In this document: positions 6,405 through 63,944 of the stretch, in pieces
Position numbering within the stretch: the stretch's first letter is position 1
How the letters are laid out: each line of letters opens with the position of its first letter
NCBI RefSeq assembly: GCF_006861825.1
Contig: NZ_VDGI01000014.1
Coordinates: forward strand, 1 to 64,000
Source: Psychrobacillus vulpis
Lineage (GTDB): Bacteria; Bacillota; Bacilli; Bacillales_A; Planococcaceae
Reading direction: 5' to 3'
Length of the DNA: 64,000 bases
The notes under the pieces: generated by a model
What the model was told of the DNA's origin: nothing
Database searches by the model: none
What the model saw: only the letters and a program-made list of their open reading frames with translations
Program-made: the position numbers and the translations under genes

Positions 6405-6420
6405 CAAATTGAAGACAACA

Positions 6421-6460
6421 GGCAGTTGGAATGAGCTCATTCCAACTGCCTTTAAAATTT
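6421..6460 (+). terminator. Terminator of ygaE (30-bp perfect palindrome)
   Basis: 6421-6450 is a perfect palindrome centred on GAGCTC, followed by TTTAAAATTTTT. Confidence 0.75.
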
Positions 6461-6479
6461 TTACTAACTGTGCTAAAAA

Positions 6480-37147: not shown

Positions 37148-37262
37148 GAGAAGTGAAAATGTCGTATTCTTCGCTTGTTCGCTTTCGGTTCTCTTTGGAC
37201 GAAATGATCGCTACATTATTACAGTAAATCAATCGAGAAGGGAAGTGACCGAGTCACTTCCC
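37148..37262 (+). repeat. 3'-end hairpin element after yfkK (divergent copy D1)
   Basis: Starts at the yfkK stop. Contains TTTGGAC, GCTACATTATTAC and the strong stem GAAGGGAAGTGAC/(G)TCACTTCCCTTC, the same order as in the clearer copies. Membership is tentative. The hairpin would terminate yfkK. Confidence 0.5.
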
Positions 37263-37348
37263 TTCTTGCTTTATCAGTATCTGTCTAGTTGAGGTAAAAA
37301 AACAGGAACTTCAACAATCCCTCACTCTATACTACTTTTTCATCTCTA

Positions 37349-37709
37349 GAAAATCGTTGAAAAGGCGATACTCCTACGGGAATAGCGTTAGCATAAGACC
37401 CCACCGCGAAGCGAGGAGGCTGAAGCAACGCCCGTGGAAAGGGAGGCCACTGAAAAACTCAAAATTATTATTTTTATAGGAACTATTTGCTGTATATCAT
37501 TCAAAGAATTTAGCGCGACGCATGAGACTCCTGCGGGAAAGCGAGACAGACGAGACCCCGCACGAAGCGAAGCGTAGGAGGAGGCTCGTCGCTCGCCCGC
37601 GGAAAGCGAATGCCAAAGCATTAAATTCTCTTAGGACTATTTGATAGATAATTTATATGAATGACACTTTTTCAGTGTCCTCTGGAAAGGGAGGCGTTTC
37701 AACGATTTC
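37349..37709. repeat. 115-bp palindromic repeat interrupted by a type A insert
   Basis: Ends GAAAATCGTTGAAA and TTTCAACGATTTCC. Split at GGAAAGGGAG by a 240-bp element listed separately. No gene in 37148-37739. Confidence 0.85.
37443..37682. mobile_element. MITE-like insert with 8-bp target duplication (type A, copy 3)
   Basis: 240 bp from GAGGCCACTGAAAAA to TTTTTCAGTGTCCTC, flanked by TGGAAAGG at 37435-37442 and 37683-37690. Contains the A core (AATTTAGCG to ATTAAATT). Non-coding. Confidence 0.8.
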
Positions 37710-39839: not shown

Positions 39840-40098
39840 CGCAGATTACCGGCTAACTCTAAAAAATAGAATGGCTACAATCTTTTTTTAAAGTTAGGTT
39901 TCCGAAGCTTATCGCGGGAGAAATACCAAGCCGATTCGTCGTCAATATGCCCCCGCTGGAGTCGAAGAGCACTAGTTGATTGGGGCAGAGACGATGACTC
40001 CTACGGGAGTAGCGTGAGTCTTGAGACCCTGCTGGGAGCATTGCGAGGGCACTATAACCAACTTTGCCAGACAGGGTTGTGCATAACCTAATAGATAA
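39840..40098. repeat. Decayed GC-rich repeat fragments, left part of cluster 4
   Basis: No gene between psuK and motB (39746-41173). This part holds degenerate pieces with GACTCCTACGGGAGTAGCG and GAGACCCTGCTGGGA, related to the B repeat. Confidence 0.6.
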
Positions 40099-40213
40099 GA
40101 AAATCGTTGAAATGGCTCCCTTTCCGCGGGCGTTGCCTTAGCCTCCTCGCTGCGCTGTGGGGTCTTCGGCTAACGCTATTCCCGCAGGAGTGTCGCCATT
40201 TTCAACGATTTTT
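40099..40213. repeat. Intact 115-bp palindromic repeat (type B)
   Basis: Uninterrupted copy with ends GAAAATCGTTGAAATGGC and GCCATTTTCAACGATTTT. The whole unit can fold into one long hairpin. Used as reference length for the interrupted copies. Confidence 0.88.
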
Positions 40214-40393
40214 TAGAAATGAAATAGTATTTATTATCTTAAAAAATAGAAATTTTTCAATGCCCGCTTTACACTACACGGGATCTTGGAGACTCCTTTT
40301 TTCCGGAGTCTAGTCCTTATAATCAGCTTTGTCAGACGTAGTTGTATAATAACCCCAGTAAATAAGAAAATCGTTGAAATGGCTCCCTTTCCG

Positions 40394-40553
40394 GAGGCCA
40401 CTGAAAAAGTCACTTTTTTTCAAAAAATAAAAACGAAATCCCATAATTCCTTCACTTTTTAGGGTGTTTATGGGGACGTCATGCCAATTTTGATACAAAT
40501 ATACTTCTCAAGTGGTGACTTTATTTTCTGAATTTTGGTTTTTCAGTGGCCTC
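40394..40553. mobile_element. 160-bp MITE-like insert (type C, copy 1)
   Basis: From GAGGCCACTGAAAAA to TTTTTCAGTGGCCTC, flanked by CCTTTCCG at 40386-40393 and 40554-40561. Near-identical in sequence and equal in length to 62214-62373. Confidence 0.85.
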
Positions 40554-40588
40554 CCTTTCCGCGGGCGTTACCTCAGCCTCCTCGCTTC

Positions 40589-40886
40589 GAGGCCACTGAA
40601 AAACTCAAAATTATTATTTTTATAGGAACTATGTGCTGTATTTCATTTAAAGAATTTAGCGCGACGCATGAGACTCCTGCGGGAAAGCGAGACAGACCCC
40701 GCACGAAGCAACAGAGATGAAGGAAGGCTAAGGGCGCCTCTTCCTGAGGCAACGCCTTCATGACCAACATCGTGTTGGCCTGAGGAGGCTCGTCGCTCGC
40801 CCGCGGAAAGCGAATGCCAAAGCGCTAAATTCTCTTAGGACTATTTGATAGATAATTTATTTGAATGACACTTTTTCAGTGCCCTC
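40589..40886. mobile_element. MITE-like insert (type A, copy 5) with extra internal segment
   Basis: 298 bp from GAGGCCACTGAAAAA to TTTTTCAGTGCCCTC. Left flank CTCGCTTC; right flank reads CATCGCTTC, so the duplication is imperfect. The core has about 60 extra bases with their own short inverted repeats (GACCAACATCGTGTTGG). Confidence 0.7.
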
Positions 40887-41089
40887 CATCGCTTCGCTGC
40901 AGGGTCTTCGGTTAACGCTATTACCGCAGGAGTGTTGCCTTTTTCAACGATTTTCTAGAAATGATAAAGTATTACCTTAAAAAATAGAAAGTTTTTCAGT
41001 GCCCTCTAACGTAGCAACTGAGGAGGATCAAGCCGCACCCGCGGAAAGCGTTCGCCCGTAGAGGAAATCAACTGGTTTAATTTTGAATA

Positions 41090-45646: not shown

Positions 45647-45785
45647 ATGTGCAAGAGCACCTTTTCTCCGACATTCCTGGAGAGCTTAGTACTGCACGTT
45701 TGCTACTTCATTACCGTAGGATAATTTTTAGAGGGATGGAAGTGGCTATGCTACTTCCACCCCTCCTTTTTCTAACATCACCTAC
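45647..45785 (+). repeat. 3'-end hairpin element after mreBH (divergent copy D2)
   Basis: Starts 4 bases after the stop. Order: GCAAGAGC, then GCTACTTCATTACCGTAGGATAA, then GAGGGATGGAAGT paired with ACTTCCACCCCTC and a T run. The arrangement parallels copies D3-D5. The rest of the 342-base gap to the next gene (45786-45985) shows no gene. Confidence 0.5.
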
Positions 45786-45985
45786 TAAATTCGAGCTAAG
45801 TTTGGGAGTTACACTTGTTCAAAAGAAATTCAGTATTACTACATATCTAACTATCCACAACATTAACAAAGATTATGCAATTTAGCGAAAAAGTAGTTTC
45901 ATTCAGTAACAATTCAATCAAAATAGAGGAAATCTCTTCTCCAATCATATAAAATAAAAAGATGAAATTATGAAGGGGGAATTCT

Positions 45986-53063: not shown

Positions 53064-53128
53064 TGTTTATACTACCTTAATAAAGGGAATGGATTTCATA
53101 ACATATAATCTATTAGGAGCGGATAACA

Positions 53129-53227
53129 ATGAAAGTAAAAAACATAGTAAAAACCGCGATAAAATGGGCACCTGTTGTCTATCCAATAGTACGAAAAATA
53201 ATAAAATCGAAAAAGACGTTGAAATAA
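53129..53227 (+). CDS. Small cationic amphipathic peptide (32 residues)
   Basis: [20 protein letters not shown] is the first part; the whole peptide has nine Lys, one Arg and no acidic residue, with hydrophobic residues spaced as in an amphipathic helix. GGAG is 9 bases before the ATG. The stop is followed at once by a large hairpin element. Possible roles are a membrane-active peptide or small regulatory subunit. I know no family. Confidence 0.6.
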
Positions 53228-53510
53228 TAAAAGCGCAAGCGTCCTTTAAGTACATCTTGTCCTTTACATTCCCGAGTGCTTTGGACTAGTCAAACTGCTA
53301 CACTATTATCGTTAGATTTAGAGGATTTGGAAGTGACTGTGTCACTTCCAAATCCTCTATTTTCGGTAATCTTGTGGCGGATATTTGTCCGTCGCTCTCT
53401 TGGAATGTGAGTGGACATGGTGCATTTGCTTTGGATAATGAGAGATAAAATCCTTTCATACTCTGTTAAATGCGTCCGAAGATACAATTTCGGACGCGGC
53501 TTCGCTTATT
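53228..53510 (+). repeat. 3'-end long hairpin element (copy D3)
   Basis: Begins at the stop of the 32-residue gene with AAAGCGCAAGCG. Nested arms: ACATTCC (53266-53272) with GGAATGT (53402-53408), GGAC with GTCC (53283-53286, 53387-53390), and a central stem GAGGATTTGGAAGTGAC with its inverse. A side hairpin GCGTCCGAA/TTCGGACGC closes the element near 53471-53499. Acts as terminator and 3' structure. Confidence 0.75.
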
Positions 53511-53840
53511 AATTCATCGGTACTAATTATTTTTTCTCTACTTCCACTTGCCATATTGATAAGCAAAGGAAAGTACACCAGTTATTGATTGGACGAAGCA
53601 TACTGTCTTTCTTATTTGACCTGTTGATTGGAGCGGAAGATGCTTACCCCTGGTCCCGATTTAACAAAAACTATTCAGTACAATAAGTGGAATTTTCTGC
53701 AAAAACAAGTCCTTGTAAGTAATTTGAATCGGTCCTCACGTTAAGTTGTTAAGAATAAAATCCACGATAAATGGATATAATCAGCATGAATTAACGTAAA
53801 AATTATGACCAGATAAAAAAGAAAATGAGGCGGTAATGAC
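53511..53840 (+). other. Intergenic stretch without recognised gene
   Basis: 330 bases, AT-rich. A piece reading GTTGATTGGAGCGGAAGATG looks like a remnant of a dispersed Bacillales repeat. Nothing else identified apart from the ribosome site GAGGCGG of the next gene. Confidence 0.5.
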
Positions 53841-54485
53841 ATGTCTATGGAATGGTTTAACAGAGTAACTGGTGAACTTCAAGATCATTTGAAATCGATT
53901 TGCGAAGAATATGACCAAATCGGTCATATGAATATCAATCGAGGTTCAAAACATCCACGAATTGAATTTTTTATCACGACAGAAGATGACGACAGGGATT
54001 ACTTTTGCACCCTCCTCTTTGATCCGTATAATGAAGAATTTTACGTAGAAAGCTTTGATATTGCCCTTCAACAACCTACAAGAATTATTTTGGATGATAT
54101 TACTGATGTGGTTGAAGCTGTTCATGAAAGTTTTCATGAATTTATGGACGAAGATAGTGAAGTCTTTTATGTAGATGATGAATTGGAATACGAAATTCTA
54201 GATGATGAAATTACTCATGAAGAAATTGATGTGGAATGGGAAACTCCAGAAGTCACGGCTTACCAAATTGAAGAAAATTTTGAAGTAACCTATCAGTTTG
54301 GGGTAGATAGCGCTAATGGAGATGGCGTTCTGCGAAGAGTCAATCGGATCTGGACAGAAGACGGGGAACTCTTCGAAGATGAAAGTACCTTGTCATTTAA
54401 AAAAGAAGAGGCAAGTACCATTATCGCCATGATTGCGAGCCATATGGATACTATGACTGGATATGAAGGAATTATAAACGAATAA
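53841..54485 (+). CDS. Acidic protein of unknown function
   Basis: 214 residues, about 57 Asp or Glu and only about a dozen Lys or Arg. No signal peptide, membrane segment or known motif. The N-terminal half (MEWFNRVTGELQDHLKSICEEYD) and C-terminal half look like two alpha/beta parts joined by an acidic stretch (about 115-140). ATG 53841 has GAGGCGG. It is followed directly by a hairpin element. I do not recognise the family. Confidence 0.75.
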   Translation: MSMEWFNRVTGELQDHLKSICEEYDQIGHMNINRGSKHPRIEFFITTEDDDRDYFCTLLFDPYNEEFYVESFDIALQQPTRIILDDITDVVEAVHESFHEFMDEDSEVFYVDDELEYEILDDEITHEEIDVEWETPEVTAYQIEENFEVTYQFGVDSANGDGVLRRVNRIWTEDGELFEDESTLSFKKEEASTIIAMIASHMDTMTGYEGIINE

Positions 54486-54690
54486 GAAAAGCGCGAGCGC
54501 CCTTTAAGTGCATCTTATCTTCATCGTTTCTAGCGTGCTTTGGACAGCATGTCGTCCATCTTATTTCCGGATAAGCTTTAAGAGGAACGGGAAGTGGCAA
54601 GCCACTTCCCGTTCCTCTTTTTAGTAATCCTATGGCTGTCGTTTGTCCGTCGCCCGCTTGAAACGGTTGGAGTCAGGTGGCGTTTGCTAA
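54486..54690 (+). repeat. 3'-end long hairpin element (copy D4, truncated)
   Basis: Starts at the stop with AAAAGCGCGAGCG. Central stem AAGAGGAACGGGAAGTGGC with its inverse, then T-run. Outer arms CGTTTC and GAAACG as in D5. The right end is cut by GC-rich repeat DNA from about 54690. Confidence 0.75.
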
Positions 54691-54960
54691 AAAGGCGAAA
54701 CTCCAGCGGGAATAGCGTTAGTCGAAGACCCCGCAGCGAAGCGAGGAAGACACTGAAAAACTTGAAATTAGTATTTTAGTAAGAACTATTTGCTGTATTT
54801 TAATTAAAAGAATTTAGCGCGACGCATGAGACTCCTGCGGGAAAGCGAGACAGACGAGACCCCGCACGAAGCAGAGCGAAGGAGGAGGCTCGTCGCTCGC
54901 CCGCGGAAAGCGAATGCCAAAGCGCTAAATTCTCTTAGCGGCAATTTGATAGACAGAGTA
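54691..54960. repeat. GC-rich repeat cluster 5 (partial B plus type A core)
   Basis: Part of a B unit (GGGAATAGCGTTAGTCGAAG) interrupted at GCGAGG by a type A element starting AGACACTGAAAAACTTG near 54747. The A core runs 54810-54931 (GAATTTAGCG to CGCTAAATTC). The right terminal repeat is missing; sequence joins TACATCAATTTTATATACTT, also found at 63.06 kb. Non-coding to 55116 apart from a further AAAAGCGCAAGCGC fragment near 54992. Confidence 0.75.
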
Positions 54961-55116
54961 CATCAATTTTATATACTTTCTTATCTTTTAAGAAAAGCGC
55001 AAGCGCATTAGTGAACACCCTGCGCGCGTTAAACTCTCGCGCTACAAGCTCGCTTAGGTTCATGACGATTGAGTCCGGACAATCACTATGTAGAAAAGTT
55101 TATACTTTCTTATCTC

Positions 55117-55154
55117 AAAAAACGGTCCCTAGTTCAAACTAGGGACCGTTTTTT
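55117..55154. terminator. Terminator of the GDSL hydrolase operon
   Basis: Stem AACGGTCCCTAG/CTAGGGACCGTT extended by A/T pairs, T-rich on both sides. Confidence 0.88.
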
Positions 55155-55156
55155 AT

Positions 55157-56026
55157 TTAGACGTAAGGCTTTAATTCTGTTAATGATAAATACCGATCGA
55201 AGCCTTCGATTCTTGATACAGGTTTTATCACTTCTTCTTTTTGTTTGTTTAATATTTGTTCAAAAGTTAAAGGATTTGGAACAGGTAGTTCGCTTTGACT
55301 CACTTGTAAACGCGCATTATATTGTTGGAAGAATGCATTAGCCATCAAACGATACCCTTCCATTGTTGGATGCACATCTGCTCGGTTTGGCACTAATTGT
55401 TTCTCATTTCGAGCAAATAGTTCTTCTACAGAGACGTACGTTGCTCCGTTTGCTTCCGACACTGTTTTTAAAATAGAATGAAGTGTATTTAACTCTTTTT
55501 GAACGCCTTGTTTTTGTGAATCACGTGCATGAGGATATGCAAAATAATACCCCATTATATACACTTTAGCTTTCGGTGCTATCGTTTGTACTTCTTGAAT
55601 GATCTCGGTCATGTTTTTACGCACATTGTTTAGAGCATTGTCGGCTGAAATTTGTTGAAATGCGATAGAACCATTGGATGGATTTGCTTGAACAAGCCTC
55701 AGTAAATCATTCGCTCCGGCTGATATTGTAACAACCGTTGCATTTTTTAGTAATTCTTTTGCTTCTTTAGATCTAACAGTTTTCAATACATCTGTAGTCG
55801 TATACCCTGGAAACGCAAGAGATTTAGAATAATAAGCAAGTTGCTTAGAACGAGTCAATTCTTGTGCTATTAAATCAGTATACCCTGTATCAATTGCTTT
55901 GTTAGGTGTTTGACCTGCTGCAAGCGAATCGCCAAGTGCAATGTACACAATATTACTACTCGCTTGGGCAGTTGAGGAGCTGAAGGATAATAATAAAACG
56001 ACTATTGTAATAAGCCATTTTTTCAT
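55157..56026 (-). CDS. Secreted SGNH/GDSL hydrolase
   Basis: 289 residues. Signal peptide (MKKWLITIVVLLLSFSSSTAQA), block I GDSLAAG (Ser nucleophile, about 33), block III GANDLLR (about 103) and block V DVHPTMEGY (Asp and His, about 217-220). Likely extracellular esterase or lipase. ATG 56026 with AAGGGGGCG, 13 bases after the M29 peptidase stop, so it is in that operon. Longer frame upstream overlaps the peptidase and is rejected. Confidence 0.9.
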   Translation of the reverse strand: MKKWLITIVVLLLSFSSSTAQASSNIVYIALGDSLAAGQTPNKAIDTGYTDLIAQELTRSKQLAYYSKSLAFPGYTTTDVLKTVRSKEAKELLKNATVVTISAGANDLLRLVQANPSNGSIAFQQISADNALNNVRKNMTEIIQEVQTIAPKAKVYIMGYYFAYPHARDSQKQGVQKELNTLHSILKTVSEANGATYVSVEELFARNEKQLVPNRADVHPTMEGYRLMANAFFQQYNARLQVSQSELPVPNPLTFEQILNKQKEEVIKPVSRIEGFDRYLSLTELKPYV

Positions 56027-56039
56027 TTGTATCGCCCCC

Positions 56040-57269
56040 TTAAAATGCCCAAGTTCCTTTTTGGAAAATTGGTTCCACTGTTCCATCTTCTAATTCTCCA
56101 AGTATATCCATATCCGCACTACCAATCATAAAGTCTTCATGTACGATGGATGTATTAATACCAAGGTTTTCAAGTTCACTTGGAGATAGTCCACGGGCCC
56201 CTTCCAAACATGTTGGATATGCTTCACCAATTGCAAAATGATTGGATGCATTTTCGTCAAAAAGTGTATTAAAAAACAAAACGTTTGATGCAGAGATTGG
56301 TGATTCGTGAGGAACTAGAGCAATTTCCCCTAAAAATTTTGCACCTTCATCAGTTTGAATTAGTTCTTGTAAAAGCTCTTCACCAGTTTCTGCTTTAACC
56401 TTTACAATCGCACCATTTTCAAATGTTAACGTAAAATTATCTATGACATTTCCTTGGTAGACGAAAGGCTTCGTGTTTTTCACATATCCATTGATCCCCG
56501 TTTTTAGAGGGGCAGTATATACTTCTTCCGTAGGCATATTAGCAATGAATGGAACACTTTGTGCATTTTTACTAGCTCCCGAAAGCCAAATATGTTCTTT
56601 CGGAAGCTCCACTTGAATATCTGTACCATTAGCTTTGTAATGCAGTTTTTTAAAACGTTTCGCATTCAACAGTTCTGCACGACTCTCTAAATGATCAATA
56701 TGTTCTTTCCATTTTTGAACGGCTGTTCCTTCCCCAATTCGTACTACTTGGAAAATAAGGTCCCAAAGAGCTTGCATTTGCTCTTCCGGTTGCAATTGTG
56801 GAAATACTTTGGCAGCCCATTTCGCTGATGGCATTGCTACAATTGACCAAGTAATGACATCACTCATTACAGCTTTACGATATCTTTCCAAAGCTTTCCC
56901 GCTAGCTTTTTGGAAATTTGATATTCGTTCAATAGAAACACCCTCGAGTAAGTCAGGGTTATCTGCATCAATCCATAGTAATGCACCTTTGTTTTCTATT
57001 AACTCATCTCGTTGCATAACAGACCACTTTGGAATTTCATGAAATGCTTCATCTGGAGCTAAATCATAAAACAATCTTGCATTTACTTCATCTGTATAGT
57101 TTACATCAACTCGTTTAGCACCAGCTTCATACGCTTTTTTCACAATAAGTCTTGTAAACTCAATAGTGTCAGTCGTTGTATTAATAAGTAACGGTTGGTT
57201 TTTTTGAATATTTAAGCCTACCTTTACAACTAGTTCCGCGTACTCTTCTAATTTTTGTTGAAAACTCAT
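56040..57269 (-). CDS. M29 family aminopeptidase (second copy)
   Basis: 409 residues, same family as 42920-44152 and alignable end to end: shared ANMPTEEVYT, DEGAKFLGEIALVPHESPIS, ASNHFAIGEAYP, VHEDFMIGSADMDI and the identical GTWAF/GNWAF-type ending. Middle gene of yfmL-M29-GDSL. ATG follows GAAAGGAAAA. Two copies in 14 kb on opposite strands suggest an old duplication; divergence is substantial. Confidence 0.92.
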   Translation of the reverse strand: MSFQQKLEEYAELVVKVGLNIQKNQPLLINTTTDTIEFTRLIVKKAYEAGAKRVDVNYTDEVNARLFYDLAPDEAFHEIPKWSVMQRDELIENKGALLWIDADNPDLLEGVSIERISNFQKASGKALERYRKAVMSDVITWSIVAMPSAKWAAKVFPQLQPEEQMQALWDLIFQVVRIGEGTAVQKWKEHIDHLESRAELLNAKRFKKLHYKANGTDIQVELPKEHIWLSGASKNAQSVPFIANMPTEEVYTAPLKTGINGYVKNTKPFVYQGNVIDNFTLTFENGAIVKVKAETGEELLQELIQTDEGAKFLGEIALVPHESPISASNVLFFNTLFDENASNHFAIGEAYPTCLEGARGLSPSELENLGINTSIVHEDFMIGSADMDILGELEDGTVEPIFQKGTWAF

Positions 57270-57272
57270 GGC

Positions 57273-58424
57273 TTATTTTCCTTTCTTATCGATGGTTTTC
57301 GAAGAGCCCTCTATAAGTTCTCCACGATGCCAAATTTTTTGAACTGGTTTGCTTGGAAGCTCTTTCGTCCATTTTTTATACGTTTTTTCGTCCGTGTAGG
57401 TTAACAAAGTTAATACCTCTCCGTCTTTTCCTGCACGACCAGTACGTCCAGAACGGTGTAAATATTGTTCGATCGAATGAGGAACGTCCACATGAATTAC
57501 ATGAGTTAAACCTGAAATATCAAGTCCTCTTGCAGCTACATCCGTAGCAATTAATATATTCACATTCCCTTTTTTAAAGTCATCTAACGCTTTTTTTCTT
57601 TCTTCTTTTTTCATTTCAGAGTGAAGTGATACAATCGGTGCATCTCGATATGACAGTTTTGAATCTTTCATTAAGAGTTGATCTAGACTATTAACAAATG
57701 CTAGACCTCTCATTCCTTCTACATGAGACAACCTTCTTAAAAGTTCAGTTTTATCTCTTGGCTCTGTTTTAACAAAACTATGGATAACCTCACCTTTCGA
57801 TGGAATATCCTCTGATGACACTTGAATACGAACAGGATTTATCATCATTCTTTCTGCTACTAGCTCGATTTCTTCCGTAATCGTAGCAGAAGCTACAACA
57901 AGTTGTCTTTCGACCGTTGCATCAATAAGTCCTTTTACTGTCGTACGATGTTCTCTGCTTAACAATTGGTCGCCTTCATCTAATACGATTGTTTTAATTT
58001 CATGCATTTTTAATTTTTTTGCTTTTACAAGCTCTTGTAACCTTCCTGGAGTTCCAACTACTATCGTTGGTTTCTTTTTGAGGTTTTCTATTTGTCTTTG
58101 CATATTTGCTCCGCCGATTAATTGTGCAACGGAAATATTTGTACCAGATACCCATTCACGAAATACTTCTACAATTTGCATACCTAGTTCTTGAGAAGGT
58201 ACGATAACTAATGCTTGCGTTTGTTTCTTAGCAGGATCAACCATTTGTAATAATGGAAGAACATAAGCTAATGTTTTTCCTGTTCCAGTTGGAGACTCTG
58301 CTACTATATCTGAACCATTAAGCATTTGTGGTATTAATTGAGTTTGAATTGGCATTTCAAATGCAAAATTTGCTTTAGCCCATTTTTCTTGCAATGTTTC
58401 ATTTAAGTCTTGTAAAAAAGTCAA
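57273..58424 (-). CDS. yfmL: DEAD-box RNA helicase, YfmL-like
   Basis: 383 residues, the minimal two-RecA core without a C-terminal RNA-binding tail, as in B. subtilis YfmL. Q-motif region PIQTQLIP, motif I SPTGTGKT, motif Ia VPSQELG, Ib TPGRLQEL, motif II DEGD instead of DEAD, motif III SAT, and motif VI YLHRSGRTGRAG. TTG 58424 is used because AGGTGGAG lies 6 bases before; the GTG four codons earlier abuts its own GAG. YfmL assists ribosome assembly in B. subtilis. First gene of the operon. Confidence 0.88.
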   Translation of the reverse strand: MTFLQDLNETLQEKWAKANFAFEMPIQTQLIPQMLNGSDIVAESPTGTGKTLAYVLPLLQMVDPAKKQTQALVIVPSQELGMQIVEVFREWVSGTNISVAQLIGGANMQRQIENLKKKPTIVVGTPGRLQELVKAKKLKMHEIKTIVLDEGDQLLSREHRTTVKGLIDATVERQLVVASATITEEIELVAERMMINPVRIQVSSEDIPSKGEVIHSFVKTEPRDKTELLRRLSHVEGMRGLAFVNSLDQLLMKDSKLSYRDAPIVSLHSEMKKEERKKALDDFKKGNVNILIATDVAARGLDISGLTHVIHVDVPHSIEQYLHRSGRTGRAGKDGEVLTLLTYTDEKTYKKWTKELPSKPVQKIWHRGELIEGSSKTIDKKGK

Positions 58425-58521
58425 ATTGTTCTCCACCTCATCTATGTTTGAGTAAAGTGTACCATACTTTTATTATCGACAATTAGCAATTCAAAATAGA
58501 GAGAATACACTAATTTTTCAT

Positions 58522-58554
58522 AAAAAAAGTGCCATAATCAGCTGGCACTTTTTA
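58522..58554 (-). terminator. Terminator of the FbpA-like gene
   Basis: Stem AAAGTGCCA/TGGCACTTT with 8-base loop; T7 on the minus strand and T5 on the plus strand. Confidence 0.85.
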
Positions 58555-58707
58555 TTGTTCTTCTTCTGTTGTATATTCTTTCATTAATTCATAAAAGTTA
58601 AGTTGGTATAGCTGTCGTCCATCAATTTTGAAAATGCCTTTATTAACAAGGTCTTCTATCATAATTTCTCGCTTTTCTTCCATTTTTGAATCTTTACGTG
58701 TAATCAT
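58552..58707 (-). CDS. FbpA family (Fur-regulated basic protein A-like) small protein
   Basis: 51 residues: MITRKDSKMEEKREIMIED, then LVNKGIFKIDGRQLYQLNFYELMKEY, which fits the FbpA family pattern (KR, L, G-x-F/Y, GRQLYQL, L-x-EY). In B. subtilis FbpA is linked to the iron-sparing response. No Fur box was found upstream by eye and the protein is not basic, so regulation may differ. Start ATG 58707 has AAGGAGAG. Confidence 0.7.
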   Translation of the reverse strand: MITRKDSKMEEKREIMIEDLVNKGIFKIDGRQLYQLNFYELMKEYTTEEEQ

Positions 58708-58762
58708 TTTGATACTCTCCTTGCATTGTAAATCCTTCATTTATATACCCAGACAATTGAAA

Positions 58763-59344
58763 TTATAAACTTCTTTCCTTTAGCTTTTTAAATGCCTCCG
58801 TGAACTTTGTAAACCGCTTTCTGATAAATATATAAATTATGTAACCAATCAGTGCACCAAGAGAATTCAGCCATAGATCATCAATGTCACTGCTTCTATT
58901 TTGAGGAAGTTGCATTACTTCTATAAAAAGTGAAATACATAACCCAACAATCACAGCATAAGGGAAATGTTCCATCCTTTTATAAAGAAGCGGTAAAAGA
59001 AATCCAATTGGAATGAAAAGAATGATATTACCAAGAAAATTAATGTAAAAAGGCTGCCAAAATCCTAAGTAAATAATGGCATTGTATGTTTCTTTAATAA
59101 CACGAAATAACTCGAAATTCACATTTGTAATTGCAGGTTGGATTGAGCCATACTTTGGGATAATCGTTTGAGAAAACAACCCAACGAGCGATGAAATTAG
59201 CATGAGTATACCTACCTCATGTAAGCTTTCCTTTAACTCGAATCCTCTTTTTTTCCATTTAACTAATCGCCAAATAAAGACTATCGGAAGTGCAATACAA
59301 ATGAAAAAAAGCATGTCGTCTAAATAATGGACTATTGCGCTCAT
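58763..59344 (-). CDS. VanZ family membrane protein
   Basis: 193 residues, about five membrane helices. VanZ-like core NFLGNIILFIPIGFLLPLLY and EVMQLPQNRSSDIDDLWLNSLGALIGY. Family function is unclear apart from low-level teicoplanin resistance of VanZ itself. ATG 59344 with GGGAGTG; upstream codons overlap the AAA ATPase gene. It follows that gene in the same direction. Confidence 0.85.
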   Translation of the reverse strand: MSAIVHYLDDMLFFICIALPIVFIWRLVKWKKRGFELKESLHEVGILMLISSLVGLFSQTIIPKYGSIQPAITNVNFELFRVIKETYNAIIYLGFWQPFYINFLGNIILFIPIGFLLPLLYKRMEHFPYAVIVGLCISLFIEVMQLPQNRSSDIDDLWLNSLGALIGYIIYIFIRKRFTKFTEAFKKLKERSL

Positions 59345-59397
59345 TTTTTTCACTCCCATTACAATATATAACGCTTTTAGTTTACCCAAAGTTCCTG

Positions 59398-60129
59398 TCA
59401 TTCATCTTCTAGCAACTCTTTTAAAAATTTTTCTCTATGATCCAAAAAATATTTAGTCAGCTGATAATGACCAGTCATTTCATATTCTATTTCTTCTATC
59501 TTCCCCTCATCAAAACTAAATATTGTCGCATTAGGATAACCTAAAATAATGGGAGAATGCGTTGCGATGATGAACTGACAACCTTCTGCAGTTACGAGAT
59601 CATGCATGATACGTAAAAAAGCTAATTGTCTTTGAGGTGAAAGCGCAGCTTCGGGCTCATCTAGTAAGTATATAGCTCTTCCATTGAAACGATTTAAAAA
59701 TAATGACAAAAATGATTCCCCATGTGATTGTTCATGGAGTGATTTCCCACCATAATTATGAATGACACCACCGAATTCTCTTTCTAGATCATCAATATGC
59801 GATGCAAACTGATAAAAAGATTCTGCTCGAAGGAAAAAACCATTTGTTATTTTCGGCATCCATGATAATCGAATATATTTCCCTAAAGCACTTTCGGAAG
59901 CATCTACTTCATAGAGATTATTTTTGCTTCCTCCCGCTGTATTAAACTCACAATTATCCGCAATTCCTTCTAGTAAAGTAGACTTCCCTGTGCCATTTTC
60001 ACCTACTAAGAATGTTACGTTATTTGTTAGTTCAAGTTCGGATAAATGTTTTATTGTCGGTATCGTGAAAGGATACTGTTCTTCTAAATTCGGTTCATCT
60101 CGTAATATAGTGATTTTCTTTAAAAACAT
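59398..60129 (-). CDS. AAA family ATPase (ABC-type, stand-alone)
   Basis: 243 residues. Walker A GENGTGKST (about 44), ABC-like signature HGESFLSLF (about 138), Walker B AIYLLDEPEAALSP (about 155), switch His IIATHSPI. Soluble, without membrane or nuclease domain. Resembles small OLD/RecF-like ATPases of unknown role found widely in Bacteria. The second ATG (60129) is 9 bases after AGGAG. Divergent from the DUF3298 gene. Confidence 0.85.
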   Translation of the reverse strand: MFLKKITILRDEPNLEEQYPFTIPTIKHLSELELTNNVTFLVGENGTGKSTLLEGIADNCEFNTAGGSKNNLYEVDASESALGKYIRLSWMPKITNGFFLRAESFYQFASHIDDLEREFGGVIHNYGGKSLHEQSHGESFLSLFLNRFNGRAIYLLDEPEAALSPQRQLAFLRIMHDLVTAEGCQFIIATHSPIILGYPNATIFSFDEGKIEEIEYEMTGHYQLTKYFLDHREKFLKELLEDE

Positions 60130-60183
60130 ATGCATTCACTCCTACACATAAATTGTACAATTAAACTAGAAAGGATGTGGAAC

Positions 60184-60792
60184 TTGGATCTGCCTGTTCA
60201 TATCGAAACAAAGCATATTCGCAAATCATCACCAAAAATAAACGTATATTACCCTATTGTAACGAAATTACCTCATCCACATATCGAAAAAAAAATAAAT
60301 GATGAAATTATTTCTACCCTTAATAAACTTCTCATTGAACAAGGTTTTTACAATGAGAATTTAGAAGAAATGATAGGTCAATATGAGATTAAAACAAATG
60401 AGCGCGGAATATTGAGCTTATCCTTATTAGTCTATTCCTTTACCGGTGGAGCTCACGGATTAACGCTCGTCCAATCATTAACATTTGACGTAACTACTGG
60501 CAAGCAATACTCATTAAAAGAATTATTTAAACAAGATAGTCAATATGTAAAGATTCTTTCTGAAATGATCGGAAAAAAAATTGTAGAATGGAAAGTTCCT
60601 ATTTTAGAAGAATTTAGCGGAATTCGTCCTGACCAAGACTTTTATATAGCTGATCACAGCCTCGTTATTTACTTTCAAGTATATGAAATTACACCGTATG
60701 TATATGGTTTTCCATACTTTCCAATCGCGATTAAAGATATCGAAAATATAGTTCGACCAGATGGTCCTCTAGATAAGTTGCTTCCGTTCTAG
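60184..60792 (+). CDS. DUF3298/DUF4163 domain protein (RsiV C-terminal-like)
   Basis: 202 residues. Core motifs YYPIVTKLPHPHIEKKIN (DUF4163 part) and SFTGGAHGLT...LTFDVTTGKQYSLKELF (DUF3298 part). No signal peptide or anchor is seen, unlike RsiV. TTG 60184 with AAAGGATGTGG upstream is preferred over an ATG 9 bases earlier that abuts its purine stretch; the start is uncertain. Function unknown. Confidence 0.78.
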   Translation: MDLPVHIETKHIRKSSPKINVYYPIVTKLPHPHIEKKINDEIISTLNKLLIEQGFYNENLEEMIGQYEIKTNERGILSLSLLVYSFTGGAHGLTLVQSLTFDVTTGKQYSLKELFKQDSQYVKILSEMIGKKIVEWKVPILEEFSGIRPDQDFYIADHSLVIYFQVYEITPYVYGFPYFPIAIKDIENIVRPDGPLDKLLPF

Positions 60793-60867
60793 CTTGTTCG
60801 ACAAATTATTCTTTTGTTCACTCATTAAGGTATGGCTATAGGAATAGTATGTATCAAAGGAGTGATT

Positions 60868-61659
60868 ATGTTTAGTTTATTTGTGACGAGATCATTGGAT
60901 GAAATTCGTTTTTGGTCAAGAATTATGAAAGAACATGCTTTATTTTTAAGTCTTGGCTTTAGTTTTGATGATAAGAAATTAATTCAAGAAGCACTAGAAT
61001 TTGTTTCTTTATTTGAAAAAATTGAGGAAAAGCTAAGTACTTATTCCCCACAGTCTGATCCAGAGGAAATAAAAAGATTTAATATTCAAGTGTATCAAGC
61101 CGCTACTGCCATATGGGCTTATAAAAGAAAAGTACTAGGGCTCATTTTACGATGCGAAATTAGATCAAATAACTATGCATTATTAGTAGATCATACAAGT
61201 AGAGAAGCGGCCTATTTTGTCAATCGATTAAAAGAATTAAATGCAGGAAAGCTCGAGCCTAGGGCTGACGACATTATTAAAGAAAATGTTTTCTTTCTAA
61301 AAATTATGGCAGACCATTCTAAATTTATCGGCCACCTCTTAGATCCTTCGGAAAGAAAATTAGTAGACCAAGCACGTGATTTCAGTCATGATTTTGATCA
61401 GCTTGTTTTTCAGGCACTCGATTTAGATTCCATGCGCCCACAATCCGAAACTACTCCTATTTTAGATCAATTCCTTGATCAAAACCGTGTTTCTGTTGTA
61501 TCACTTAGAGACTTTAAAAAAGCGGCAAGAGATTTAATAGAAGCTTGTCGTATAAAAAGTAATATTCATCCTCTTCTAGCCGACCATGTTTTCCGAGAAG
61601 CTGAAAGATTTCTTCATATTATTGATATGTATGAAAATACCCTTCTTTCAAATAAATAA
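60868..61659 (+). CDS. DUF2935 protein with duplicated helical domain
   Basis: 263 residues. Two similar halves: EIRFWSRIMKEHALFL (about 10-25) matches ENVFFLKIMADHSKFI (about 140-155), and TSREAAYFVNRL matches VFREAERFLHII. Each half looks like a four-helix bundle with E and E/D-H residues suited to metal binding. Function unknown; the family is common in sporeformers. ATG follows AAAGGAGTG. A hairpin element follows the stop. Confidence 0.83.
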   Translation: MFSLFVTRSLDEIRFWSRIMKEHALFLSLGFSFDDKKLIQEALEFVSLFEKIEEKLSTYSPQSDPEEIKRFNIQVYQAATAIWAYKRKVLGLILRCEIRSNNYALLVDHTSREAAYFVNRLKELNAGKLEPRADDIIKENVFFLKIMADHSKFIGHLLDPSERKLVDQARDFSHDFDQLVFQALDLDSMRPQSETTPILDQFLDQNRVSVVSLRDFKKAARDLIEACRIKSNIHPLLADHVFREAERFLHIIDMYENTLLSNK

Positions 61660-61955
61660 TATGTCTAAGAAATGCGCAGGCGCTCCTTTATGTGCATCTT
61701 CTCTTCATCGTTTCTAGCGTGCTTTGGACATCATTTCAGCCATCTTATTACCGGATAAGTTTTAAGAGGGAAGGGAAGTGTCAAGCTACTTCCCGTCCCT
61801 CTTTTTCGGTAATCCTATGGCTGTCGTTTGTCCGTTGCCCGCTTGAAACGGTTGGAGTCACGTGGCTTTTGCTTTAGGTTAATGAAAGAAATACATACTA
61901 TCTACCTGGAGAGCGGCGCCCGAAGATACAATTTCGTGCGCTCTTCGCTTCTCAA
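61660..61955 (+). repeat. 3'-end long hairpin element (copy D5, full length)
   Basis: Starts directly after the DUF2935 stop. Nested arms: CGTTTC/GAAACG (61709-61714, 61845-61850), GGACA/TGTCC (61726, 61829), CAGCCAT/ATGGCTG (61737-61743, 61817-61823), ATTACCG/CGGTAAT (61747-61753, 61807-61813), and the central 15-bp stem (61765-61779 with 61788-61802) plus T run. Tail hairpin GCGCCCGAA/TTCGTGCGC as in D3. Confidence 0.82.
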
Positions 61956-62213
61956 TTTAGAGATGCTGCTTATTTTTTTTCAACTAGTAATGCCATAAAA
62001 CATATGAACAAAAACGAGGCCGGTGAAAAACTTGAAATTAGTACTTTTATAGGTACTATTTACTGTATCCTTTTTTATATGTGGATCCTTAAGAATCCAT
62101 ACTCTACTTTTTTTTCTAGAAAATCGTTGAAAAAGGCGACACTCCTGCGGGAATAGCGTTAGCCGAAGACCCCGCAGCGAAGCGAGGAGGCTGAGGCAAC
62201 GCCCGCGGAAAGG

Positions 62214-62373
62214 GAGACCACTGAAAAAGTCACTTTTTTTCAAAAAATAAAAACGAAATCCCATAATTCCTTCACTTTTTAGGGTGTTTATGGGGACGTC
62301 ATGTCAATTTTGATACAAATATACTTCTCAAGTGGTGACTTTATTTTCTGAATTTTGGTTTTTCAGTGGCCTC
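62214..62373. mobile_element. 160-bp MITE-like insert (type C, copy 2)
   Basis: From GAGACCACTGAAAAA to TTTTTCAGTGGCCTC, flanked by CGGAAAGG at 62206-62213 and 62374-62381. It sits in the first tandem B unit. Near-identical to 40394-40553. Confidence 0.88.
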
Positions 62374-62500
62374 CGGAAAGGGAGCCGTTTCAACGATTTT
62401 CTTATTTATTGGAATATTGGACAACCTGATCTGGATGCAGGAGCGTAGCGAAGGTACTGAAAAAATGTCTATTTTTTAAGGTAATACTTTTTTATTTCTA

Positions 62501-62615
62501 GAAAATCGTTGAAAAAGGCGACACTCCTGTGGGAATAGCGTTAGTCGAAGACCCCGCAGCGAAGCGAGGAGGCTGAGGCAACGCCCGCGGAAAGGGAGCC
62601 GTTTCAACGATTTTC
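62501..62615. repeat. Intact 115-bp palindromic repeat (type B, tandem unit 2)
   Basis: GAAAATCGTTGAAAAAGGCG to TTTCAACGATTTTC. Almost identical to the third unit at 62715-62829. Confidence 0.9.
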
Positions 62616-62714
62616 TTATTTATTGGAATATTGGACAACCTGATCTGGATGCAGGAGCGTAGCGAAGGTACTGAAAAACTGTCTATTTTTTAAGGTAATA
62701 CTTTTTCATTTCTA

Positions 62715-62829
62715 GAAAATCGTTGAAAAAGGCGACACTCCTGCGGGAATAGCGTTAGTCGAAGACCCCGCAGCGAAGCGAGGAGGCTGAGGCAACGCCC
62801 GCGGAAAGGGAGCCGTTTCAACGATTTTC
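62715..62829. repeat. Intact 115-bp palindromic repeat (type B, tandem unit 3)
   Basis: Same ends and length as 62501-62615, exactly 214 bp further on. Confidence 0.9.
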
Positions 62830-63167
62830 TTATTAATTTGGACAACCCTTCTGGCAAAGAAGAATTATAGGGACTTTTCAGTGCCCTTGAGCGAAGCGAA
62901 GGAGGAGGCTCGTCGCTCGCCCGCGAAAAGCGAATGCCAAAGCGCTAAATTCTCGTAGCGGCTATTTGATAGATAATTTATTGGAATGACACTCTTTCAG
63001 CGCCCTTACGAGTCTTTACTAATCCTAGTAATGTACTATAAACACTTGGTCCATAGTACATCAATTTTATATACTTTCTTATCTTTTAAAAAAATGGATT
63101 AGCTCTAGTGACAGTCTCCCTTTACTACGGTAAAGTTATTATTATGTTAGTGAAGGGGGATTTTAAA

Positions 63168-63944
63168 ATGAAAGCTATATTTTTCGATTTAGATGACACA
63201 TTACTATGGGATAAAAAAAGTGTAGAAACAGCTTTTCAAAAGACTTGTGAATATGCATCAACGAAAGTCGATATTGATCCAAAAAAATTAGAACAAGCTG
63301 TACGTACAGAAGCAAGTGCATTATATGATACATATGAAACACGTTCTTTTACACAAATGATAGGAATAAATCCATTTGAAGGATTATGGGGAACTTTCGA
63401 CGATCCGAGTGATGATTTCCAAAAGATGAAGGCTATTATTCCTGAATATCAAAAAGAATCTTGGACAAGAGGTTTAAGGAAATTGGGGATAGACAATGAA
63501 GCTCTCGGAAGTGAGCTAGCTCATTTTTTCCCAAATGCACGAAAAGAAAACCCATTTATATACGATGAAACATATGAAGTACTAGATCAGTTAAAAGGAA
63601 AGTATACACTCCTCTTAATGACTAATGGTTCTCCTAGCTTACAAAATACAAAGCTAGAAATTACACCTGAAATTGCTCCTTATTTTGATCACATCCTAAT
63701 TTCCGGAGCATTTGGAAAAGGAAAACCTGACCCATCTATTTTTGAACATGCATTAAATCTAGTAGGATTGCAAGCAAATGAAGTTCTTATGGTCGGCGAT
63801 AATTTAATGACTGACATACTTGGATCCTCGAAAGTTGGCATGAAGTCTGTTTGGATTAATCGAGAAAATAAACAAGCAAGTGATGAAGTAAAGCCTACAT
63901 ATACAATCGAAAACTTGCGAGAACTTCTAACGATTCTGGCATAA
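63168..63944 (+). CDS. HAD superfamily phosphatase (YsaA-like)
   Basis: 258 residues. HAD motifs: I DLDDTLL (nucleophile Asp, residues 7-13), II MTNGS (about 148), III Lys in GKGKPDPSIF (about 183) and IV GDNLMTD (about 208). A helical cap lies between motifs I and II. Length and order resemble B. subtilis YsaA. Substrate unknown. ATG 63168 has AAGGGGG; the frame continues upstream but without a ribosome site. The last 56 bases of the window after it hold no gene. Confidence 0.9.
   Translation: MKAIFFDLDDTLLWDKKSVETAFQKTCEYASTKVDIDPKKLEQAVRTEASALYDTYETRSFTQMIGINPFEGLWGTFDDPSDDFQKMKAIIPEYQKESWTRGLRKLGIDNEALGSELAHFFPNARKENPFIYDETYEVLDQLKGKYTLLLMTNGSPSLQNTKLEITPEIAPYFDHILISGAFGKGKPDPSIFEHALNLVGLQANEVLMVGDNLMTDILGSSKVGMKSVWINRENKQASDEVKPTYTIENLRELLTILA

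Follow-up and report, generated by a model that had tools for sequence, protein, structure and literature searches.

Long hairpins stand close behind several genes in a 64,000-nucleotide (nt) stretch of the genome of Psychrobacillus vulpis (RefSeq assembly GCF_006861825.1, contig NZ_VDGI01000014.1, positions 1 to 64,000 of the forward strand), which as a whole is called the window below. Judged by their ends, the hairpins are not independent genes and lie at one end of units that in this genus are non-autonomous and resemble insertion sequences (IS) of the IS91 family. The best explanation, which we hold with a little more than even confidence, is that the hairpins are a cargo module of these mobile elements and serve as a portable terminator blocking transcription that enters the element. 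The element families themselves are of known kinds; what is new is a set of non-autonomous IS91-like elements, elsewhere of IS4 type, that share a co-varying, terminator-like module.

Hairpin modules in the window

The original prediction, made from the sequence of the window, had claimed five copies of a long hairpin, and a covariance model termed R1 recovers all five on the + strand. The model describes a 146-nt core and was built from 23 copies of the P. vulpis genome, including the three strong window copies. The training set took 23 of 29 genomic places, truncated or rearranged copies being excluded. The E-values of copies 1, 2 and 3 are partly a matter of construction, because these copies helped to build R1.

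53265-53409, + strand: core nested hairpin, copy 1 (arms ACATTCC/GGAATGT), R1 E-value 2e-27
54523-54667, + strand: core nested hairpin, copy 2, R1 E-value 1e-41
61707-61852, + strand: core nested hairpin, copy 3, R1 E-value 5e-44
45671-45811, + strand: degenerate copy 3' of mreBH (MreBH by NF010540), R1 E-value 1e-5
37213-37284, + strand: degenerate, partial copy 3' of a DUF1128 gene (PF06569; called yfkK in the original prediction), R1 E-value 7e-5
53319-53359, + strand (sense): central 19-bp hairpin of copy 1 followed by TTTT, terminator-like
53472-53497, + strand: 3' hairpin of copy 1 with the conserved loop-side sequence CCGAAGATACAATTTCGG
61916-61941, + strand: 3' hairpin of copy 3, by eye, with one pair broken

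The strong copies fold with z-scores of -12.2 (copy 1, 53225-53512), -6.8 (copy 2, 54486-54700) and -7.9 (copy 3, 61660-61982), and none of 200, 200 and 100 shuffled sequences, respectively, was equally stable. Of the predicted nested stem of about 140 to 180 bases capped by a terminator, the nested rod stands, with a length of about 145 nt, but its terminator-like part is the central hairpin. A second, separate hairpin lies about 60 nt 3' of the main rod, and both belong to longer units. The proposed arm pairs, ACATTCC/GGAATGT in one copy and CGTTTC/GAAACG in the others, were found as described. The palindromic core gives DNA matches on both strands; a candidate sixth copy at 6414-6464 on the - strand was rejected as it looks like a chance hairpin.

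Ends and insertion sites of the units

Copies with different central hairpins have a common left end, TAAG followed by AAAARYGCAAG...; further downstream, in the same orientation, the conserved sequence ATATACTTTCTTATCTTnnAA forms the right end. The left ends at the strong copies belong to three units, A, B and C.

53226-53254, + strand: left (ori-type) end of unit A, two mismatches to the consensus, overlapping the stop codon of a 32-codon open reading frame (ORF)
54484-54512, + strand: left end of unit B, one mismatch, starting at the stop codon of a 214-amino-acid ORF
54971-54991, + strand: right (ter-type) end of unit B, exact ATATACTTTCTTATCTTTTAA
61666-61695, + strand: divergent left end of unit C; the stop codon that ends at 61659 lies 6 nt upstream
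63069-63089, + strand: right end of unit C, exact
55099-55118, + strand: degenerate right (ter-type) end, right border of island A
55119-55154, + strand: displaced host terminator (AAAACGGTCCCTAG...CTAGGGACCGTTTTTT), now separated by about 1.9 kb from the ORF that ends at 53227
53841-54485, + strand: 214-amino-acid ORF between two hairpin units in island A, with no Pfam or NCBIfam match

The left, ori-type end reads TAAG followed by AAAAGCGC..., which on the other strand is a hairpin followed by TTTTCTTA, and it is here that the hairpin module sits. TAAG is usual beside the ori end and may belong to the target or to the element. Left and right ends pair in the window as 54484-54991 (unit B) and 61666-63089 (unit C). 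In a relative, G011, the left-end pattern matched 91 times against 0 for a reversed-pattern control, and the right-end pattern 57 times against 4; in the P. vulpis genome the right-end figures were 36 and 3. No scanned locus, the window units included, had the left end in both orientations, and an element of the IS4-type miniature inverted-repeat transposable element (MITE) kind was rejected for the window units, there being no pair of terminal inverted repeats (TIR) around the unit; for the P. vulpis genome, too, a TIR element was rejected. Target duplication beyond TAA was not seen in the single empty-site comparison read at base level.

An A-tract follows all 11 right ends scored in P. vulpis and 28 of 31 in G011 (random positions, 10% and 9%), although the G011 figure overstates host terminators because left ends in tandem themselves begin with an A-tract. 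A hairpin follows the right end in 8/11 and 10/31 cases (random, 7%). Since the right ends abut A-tracts, often those of host terminators, the units land between stop codon and terminator, and this explains the impression that the hairpins start at stop codons. The original claim was that three copies begin immediately after the stops of three unrelated genes. Copy 1 begins at the stop codon (53225-53227) of the 32-codon ORF 53129-53227 and copy 2 at the stop ending at 54485; 6 nt separate copy 3 from the stop that ends at 61659. In the family as a whole, a position directly after the stop is a strong tendency and no rule. Counting ORFs of at least 80 codons that end on the same strand within 80 nt upstream, 4/14 left ends in P. 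vulpis (random, 21/280) and 23/59 in G011 (random, 108/1180) are ORF-associated, and 20 of those 23 lie within 12 nt of the stop. The random controls for stop-codon, A-tract and hairpin counts were drawn without a fixed seed.

The suspected mobility of the hairpins is borne out by sites that are empty in relatives and by ends common to the units and to transposase-bearing elements. The region of unit C (61664-63090) has no counterpart in the relatives G010, G002, G003 and G016, in which the flank matches around the site are 3, 25, 24 and 56 nt apart, respectively. Island A extends from 53226 to the degenerate right end at 55099-55118, with unit B and the 214-amino-acid ORF inside it. It is absent from G010 and G002, where the terminator stands directly behind the small gene. 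By eye, the same site holds a different module in G014, a degenerate one in G016 and other sequence in G003 and G012. The 214-amino-acid ORF is single-copy in P. vulpis. In five relatives it is not between these neighbours: it is found far off on the same contig in G016 and G003, and on another contig in G002, G012 and G010.

Transposase-bearing elements with the same ends

Which enzyme could have moved the units? The relative G011 has four IS91-family transposase genes that are at least 98% identical to each other; the one that was scanned matches NF033538 (2e-90), PF14319 and PF04986. A scan for longer autonomous versions around 20 right ends led to one transposase locus, L332. All four G011 elements begin with CAAGATAAGAAAGTATATG..., the inverse of the right, ter-type end of the units, and they end with a hairpin and TTTTTCTTA, the inverse of the left-end layout. 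The ori ends of units and elements are thus alike, both having a hairpin followed by TTTTCTTA. An IS91 transposase would accordingly be the candidate that moved the units. Three of the four elements (loci L352-L355) begin precisely where a hairpin unit has its left end. The inverse of these abutting unit ends, a hairpin followed by TTTTCTTA or TTTTCTCA, resembles the elements' own ori end, and therefore the units can build tandem chains.

The four autonomous elements carry, by eye, no hairpin module at their own ori end, which makes the module look like cargo and not like a transposition site. We therefore consider it highly improbable that the module is needed for transposition as a folded single-strand DNA end for an HUH transposase. 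The module does adjoin the ori-type end in the IS91-like units, and PMC13393415 describes IS91-related ends as forming secondary structures and the transposase as belonging to the HUH single-strand nuclease class. On the other hand, the same module also rides in IS4-type units with 9-bp duplications.

A second vehicle of IS4 type

In two Sporosarcina genomes and in records of Arthrobacter beigongshangensis, the modules lie between inverted repeats CACGTCTGTTGATTAAC. Of 27 distinct TIR-bounded units, 20 have flanks that agree at seven or more of nine bases, compared with 0/27 in the control; one of the 27 is a transposase element, and two, from Bacillus sp. FJAT-22090, are without a module match. 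An IS4-family transposase is found within such TIRs (locus L274, NF033592, 3e-59). On the evidence of TIR, 9-bp duplication and partner transposase, the Sporosarcina-type units are classed as IS4-family MITEs. They measure about 320-810 bp and hold modules singly or as a convergent pair. Convergent pairs were seen in 11/18 Sporosarcina/REN13 loci with a match in a first survey, which searched 70 loci, and in 6/12 in a second, and 17/17 convergent pairs read inward.

Spread in the genome, genus and family

The wider search that the original prediction had proposed, of this genome and other Planococcaceae, finds the module well beyond the window. By DNA search the P. vulpis genome has at least 29 places, some of them truncated, and R1 has matches in all 19 genus genomes tested. 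A family-wide model search matched 28 of 200 genomes, in 4 of 19 genera. An 18-base pattern from the 3' hairpin matched 75 stretches in records of Sporosarcina, Paenisporosarcina, Psychrobacillus, Bacillus sp. FJAT-22090 and "Arthrobacter beigongshangensis", alongside a few apparent chance matches. The records titled Arthrobacter beigongshangensis REN13 (L098, L104, L129, L146, L148, L157, L159 and L160) have Sporosarcina-like units, and this assembly may be misnamed. The partner IS91 transposase was found in G011 only, one of the 19 genus genomes. As it was not found at an E-value of 1e-20 in the other 18, most units are probably immobile now.

Covariation and its possible causes

The covariation of the arms, for which the original prediction had proposed a test, is statistically well supported in both alignments that we used. 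In the 23 P. vulpis copies, both-side changes occur at 20 of 48 pairs (6.9 on average after shuffling, no more than 13 in slid structures), and the proportion of cells that pair is 92.1% (slid structures at most 49.4%). In 84 model-aligned matches from the genus and others, 44/48 pairs change on both sides, with 740 both-side cells; shuffles give 249.8 and slid structures no more than 147. Having been fitted to the structure, this alignment is biased in its favour, seven of its rows are antisense readings of the near-palindrome, and the count took 81 distinct rows. RNAalifold gave a poor consensus on 51 G011 copies, and the covariance model was therefore used instead. The stem of the 3' hairpin also changes in both arms: pairs 1-4 are double-changed in 49, 74, 28 and 43 rows of an alignment of 158 distinct rows, which were selected by the hairpin sequence itself and from which five chance-looking 18-mer loci were excluded. 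While this stem varies, its loop-side sequence CGAAGAT[AG][CT]AATTTCG is kept across genera and both vehicles.

The original prediction took the covariation as a sign of selection on structure. The covariation itself is firm, but G-U pairs do not exceed A-C mismatches in single copies and related copies differ by changes in both arms, so that template switching at the DNA level could add to the pattern or mimic it. In quasipalindrome-associated template switching, a mechanism described in PMC7202029, one arm is copied onto the other during replication, which would keep a decaying palindrome perfect. That the arms co-vary mainly by this mutational route is a serious minority possibility. For pairs that are mostly Watson-Crick, the ratio of G-U to A-C in individual copies is 23:19 in the central stem and 70:89 in the outer one, whereas RNase P RNA from the 19 genus genomes gives 11:1, or 6:1 if restricted to pairs that both strands yield; the counts of this control are small, and predicting its fold on the + strand favours G-U. 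Private changes point the same way, with a ratio of 19:17, the corresponding changes at unpaired sites being 7:21 (clusters of at least five only, 71 of 104 cores). In G011, 28 copies have central stems that are nearly perfect and yet vary in the two arms simultaneously, with few half-changed states, which would fit either selection for a strong stem or template switching, each alone. On the other hand, consensus sequences of 12 lineages have 32 G-U against 6 A-C, or 11:6 when two fixed wobbles are subtracted by hand (11 ungrouped rows were also left out here; this count, the ratios of 23:19 and 70:89 above, and the model-alignment wobble and T-tail counts below took 76 of the 84 rows, seven antisense readings and one duplicate having been dropped). 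Template switching also does not predict fixed sequence motifs, kept wobble pairs or a one-sided T-tract, and neutral decay of dead copies would equalise G-U and A-C as well. Overall, the picture in individual copies resembles neutral decay or correction at the DNA level, while the lineage consensus leans weakly to folding of the + strand.

Could the module instead be a functional RNA, a stabiliser in the 3' untranslated region (UTR) or a small RNA carried on mobile elements, whose activity would reside in the rod and in the 3' hairpin with the conserved loop? We regard this as unlikely, more so than template switching. It is favoured by the conserved loop-side sequence within a co-varying stem in the 158 rows selected by that sequence, by internal motifs conserved across genera, and by a raw G-U excess in the outer arms, where an unbiased alignment of 73 out of 322 modules after de-duplication gives 312 G-U against 120 A-C cells. 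In the model alignment, however, this excess comes largely from three often-wobble pairs, which carry 153 of the G-U cells: the counts of 272 and 115 fall to 119 and 113 when these pairs are subtracted by hand. Promoter-like sites are above chance in 61500-63200 (10 compared to 2.8 expected from shuffles, standard deviation 1.8), a region that consists mostly of other repeats, but at chance in 53100-55300 (6 compared to 5.8 expected). At the gathering cut-off Rfam had two matches in the window, both elsewhere than at the hairpin elements. With E-values up to 5 there were only weak matches far below the cut-off, at copies 1 and 2, copy 3 being outside the scan.

Terminator-like centre and proposed role

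The reading of the module as a portable terminator starts from its centre, which the original prediction had already called a terminator. This is supported in the sequence by the T run, which is confined to the sense strand: a T-rich tail (at least 5 T in 8) follows the central stem in 45/76 rows on the sense strand and in 0/76 on the antisense strand. At copy 1, the central hairpin was also flagged by a terminator scan. Both in the IS91-like units and in the 17 pairs, the module is placed so that transcription arriving from outside runs into it in the sense direction. The IS91-like units keep the host terminator at their far end and have one module, and the IS4-type units often have two. This orientation and number are what a transcription barrier would need.

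We propose the following course of events. An IS91-like unit inserts at an A-tract, often that of an intrinsic terminator, between the stop codon and the terminator, and would thereby separate the gene from its own terminator. The module would then supply a substitute, a long and near-perfect intrinsic terminator on the sense strand nested in a longer rod. The IS4-type pairs, all of which read inward, would act as a barrier against transcription entering from either side. The sequence features thus suggest that the module may terminate transcription in vivo and may be kept for that reason.

Several observations weigh against this proposal. By a strict count, 5 T in 8 follow the stem in only 5/23 P. 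vulpis copies, which is partly due to the stem pairing into the T run and to another stem being chosen in some rows, and the terminator scan flagged nothing at copies 2 and 3. If transcription stopped at the centre, the outer 3' arm would remain untranscribed, so that its covariation needs read-through RNA or a cause at the DNA level; the outer rod, the 3' hairpin and its conserved loop are not explained by a terminator. Among the IS4-type loci, 7/18 in the first survey and 6/20 in the second have one module only (three of the single-module loci are short units of about 320-340 bp), and 8/20 in the second, one of which is the transposase element, have no module at an E-value of 1e-6. As for the IS91-like units, 11/31 right ends in G011 run straight into the next left end in tandem, perfect subterminal hairpins are found in only 9/38 right ends, and P. 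vulpis and 17 of the 18 other genus genomes are those without the IS91 transposase at 1e-20.

A bolder extension is that, within one bacterial family, two unrelated transposon types, IS91-like and IS4, have adopted the same co-varying terminator module, its orientation and often its number fitting the insertion habit of each. We put this forward tentatively and think it rather doubtful.

Comparison with known systems

Like the IS91/ISCR rolling-circle elements (NF033538, PF14319, PF04986), the units have distinct ori and ter ends, no TIR and no target duplication that we could see; they share ends with the IS91-family element of G011, and one island includes a relocated gene. They differ in being non-autonomous, in having right ends at terminator A-tracts and in carrying a long co-varying hairpin. 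IS91 has a target of the GAAC/CAAG type, instead of which the units have TAAG/CTTA beside the ori end. The Sporosarcina units resemble IS4-family MITEs (partner NF033592) in their TIR CACGTCTGTTGATTAAC, 9-bp duplications, length of about 320-810 bp and a transposase with such ends, and differ in that the interior often holds one or two modules also found in the IS91-like units. Like intrinsic (Rho-independent) terminators, the module has a long, almost perfect stem with a T run behind it on a single strand; unlike them, it sits inside an outer rod that co-varies, and mobile elements disperse it. An integron attC array was ruled out, as the copies are dispersed and in both orientations. A group II intron or retroelement was rejected as well, since no GUGYG-type 5' end was found by eye, proteins not being part of that check.

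By description, further counterparts are bcr1-bcr18 of the Bacillus cereus group, which the available part of PMC3446304 presents as structured intergenic repeats, often in UTRs and in some cases MITE-like, the presence of bcr3 correlating with longer mRNA half-life. No link to IS91 or IS4 was seen in that part of the paper. A literature search by title and start of abstract returned no description of the units or of IS91-type insertion at terminators; subscription papers are poorly covered by such a search, which makes it weak evidence of absence.

Other repeats and features of the window

The tails of the hairpin units have other repeat families nested in them (GAAAATCGTTGAAAAAGGCGACACTCC...CAACGATTTTC and GACTCCTGCGGGAAAGCGAGACAGACGAGACCCC...), which are spread across the genus. 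A match to the Rfam small RNA family "Bacillaceae-1" lies inside a repeated block bounded, by eye, by GAATTTAGCGCGACGC...GCGCTAAATTC, so that the family may in this case belong to a transposable repeat.

61980-63060, 37340-37700 and 39900-41020: further repeat families
40712-40778: Bacillaceae-1 match, 67 bits
51405-51496, - strand: thiamine pyrophosphate (TPP) riboswitch RF00059, ordinary

Implications

The large set of copies changed in both arms offers a natural test of the extent to which covariation in DNA repeats proves an RNA structure or is mimicked by template switching. The units also connect three topics that are usually kept separate, namely repeats located behind genes, the IS91-like mode of insertion at intrinsic terminators, and hairpins with jointly changing arms. 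If the terminator role holds, there would be a clear route by which a transposon becomes harmless to the adjacent gene. If, in addition, the module is a portable barrier shared by both transposon types, one copy would be carried where the host terminator remains on the far side and often two, facing inward, where it does not. The elements would then neutralise their own polar effects and could lodge beside genes by the dozens, up to about ninety per genome.

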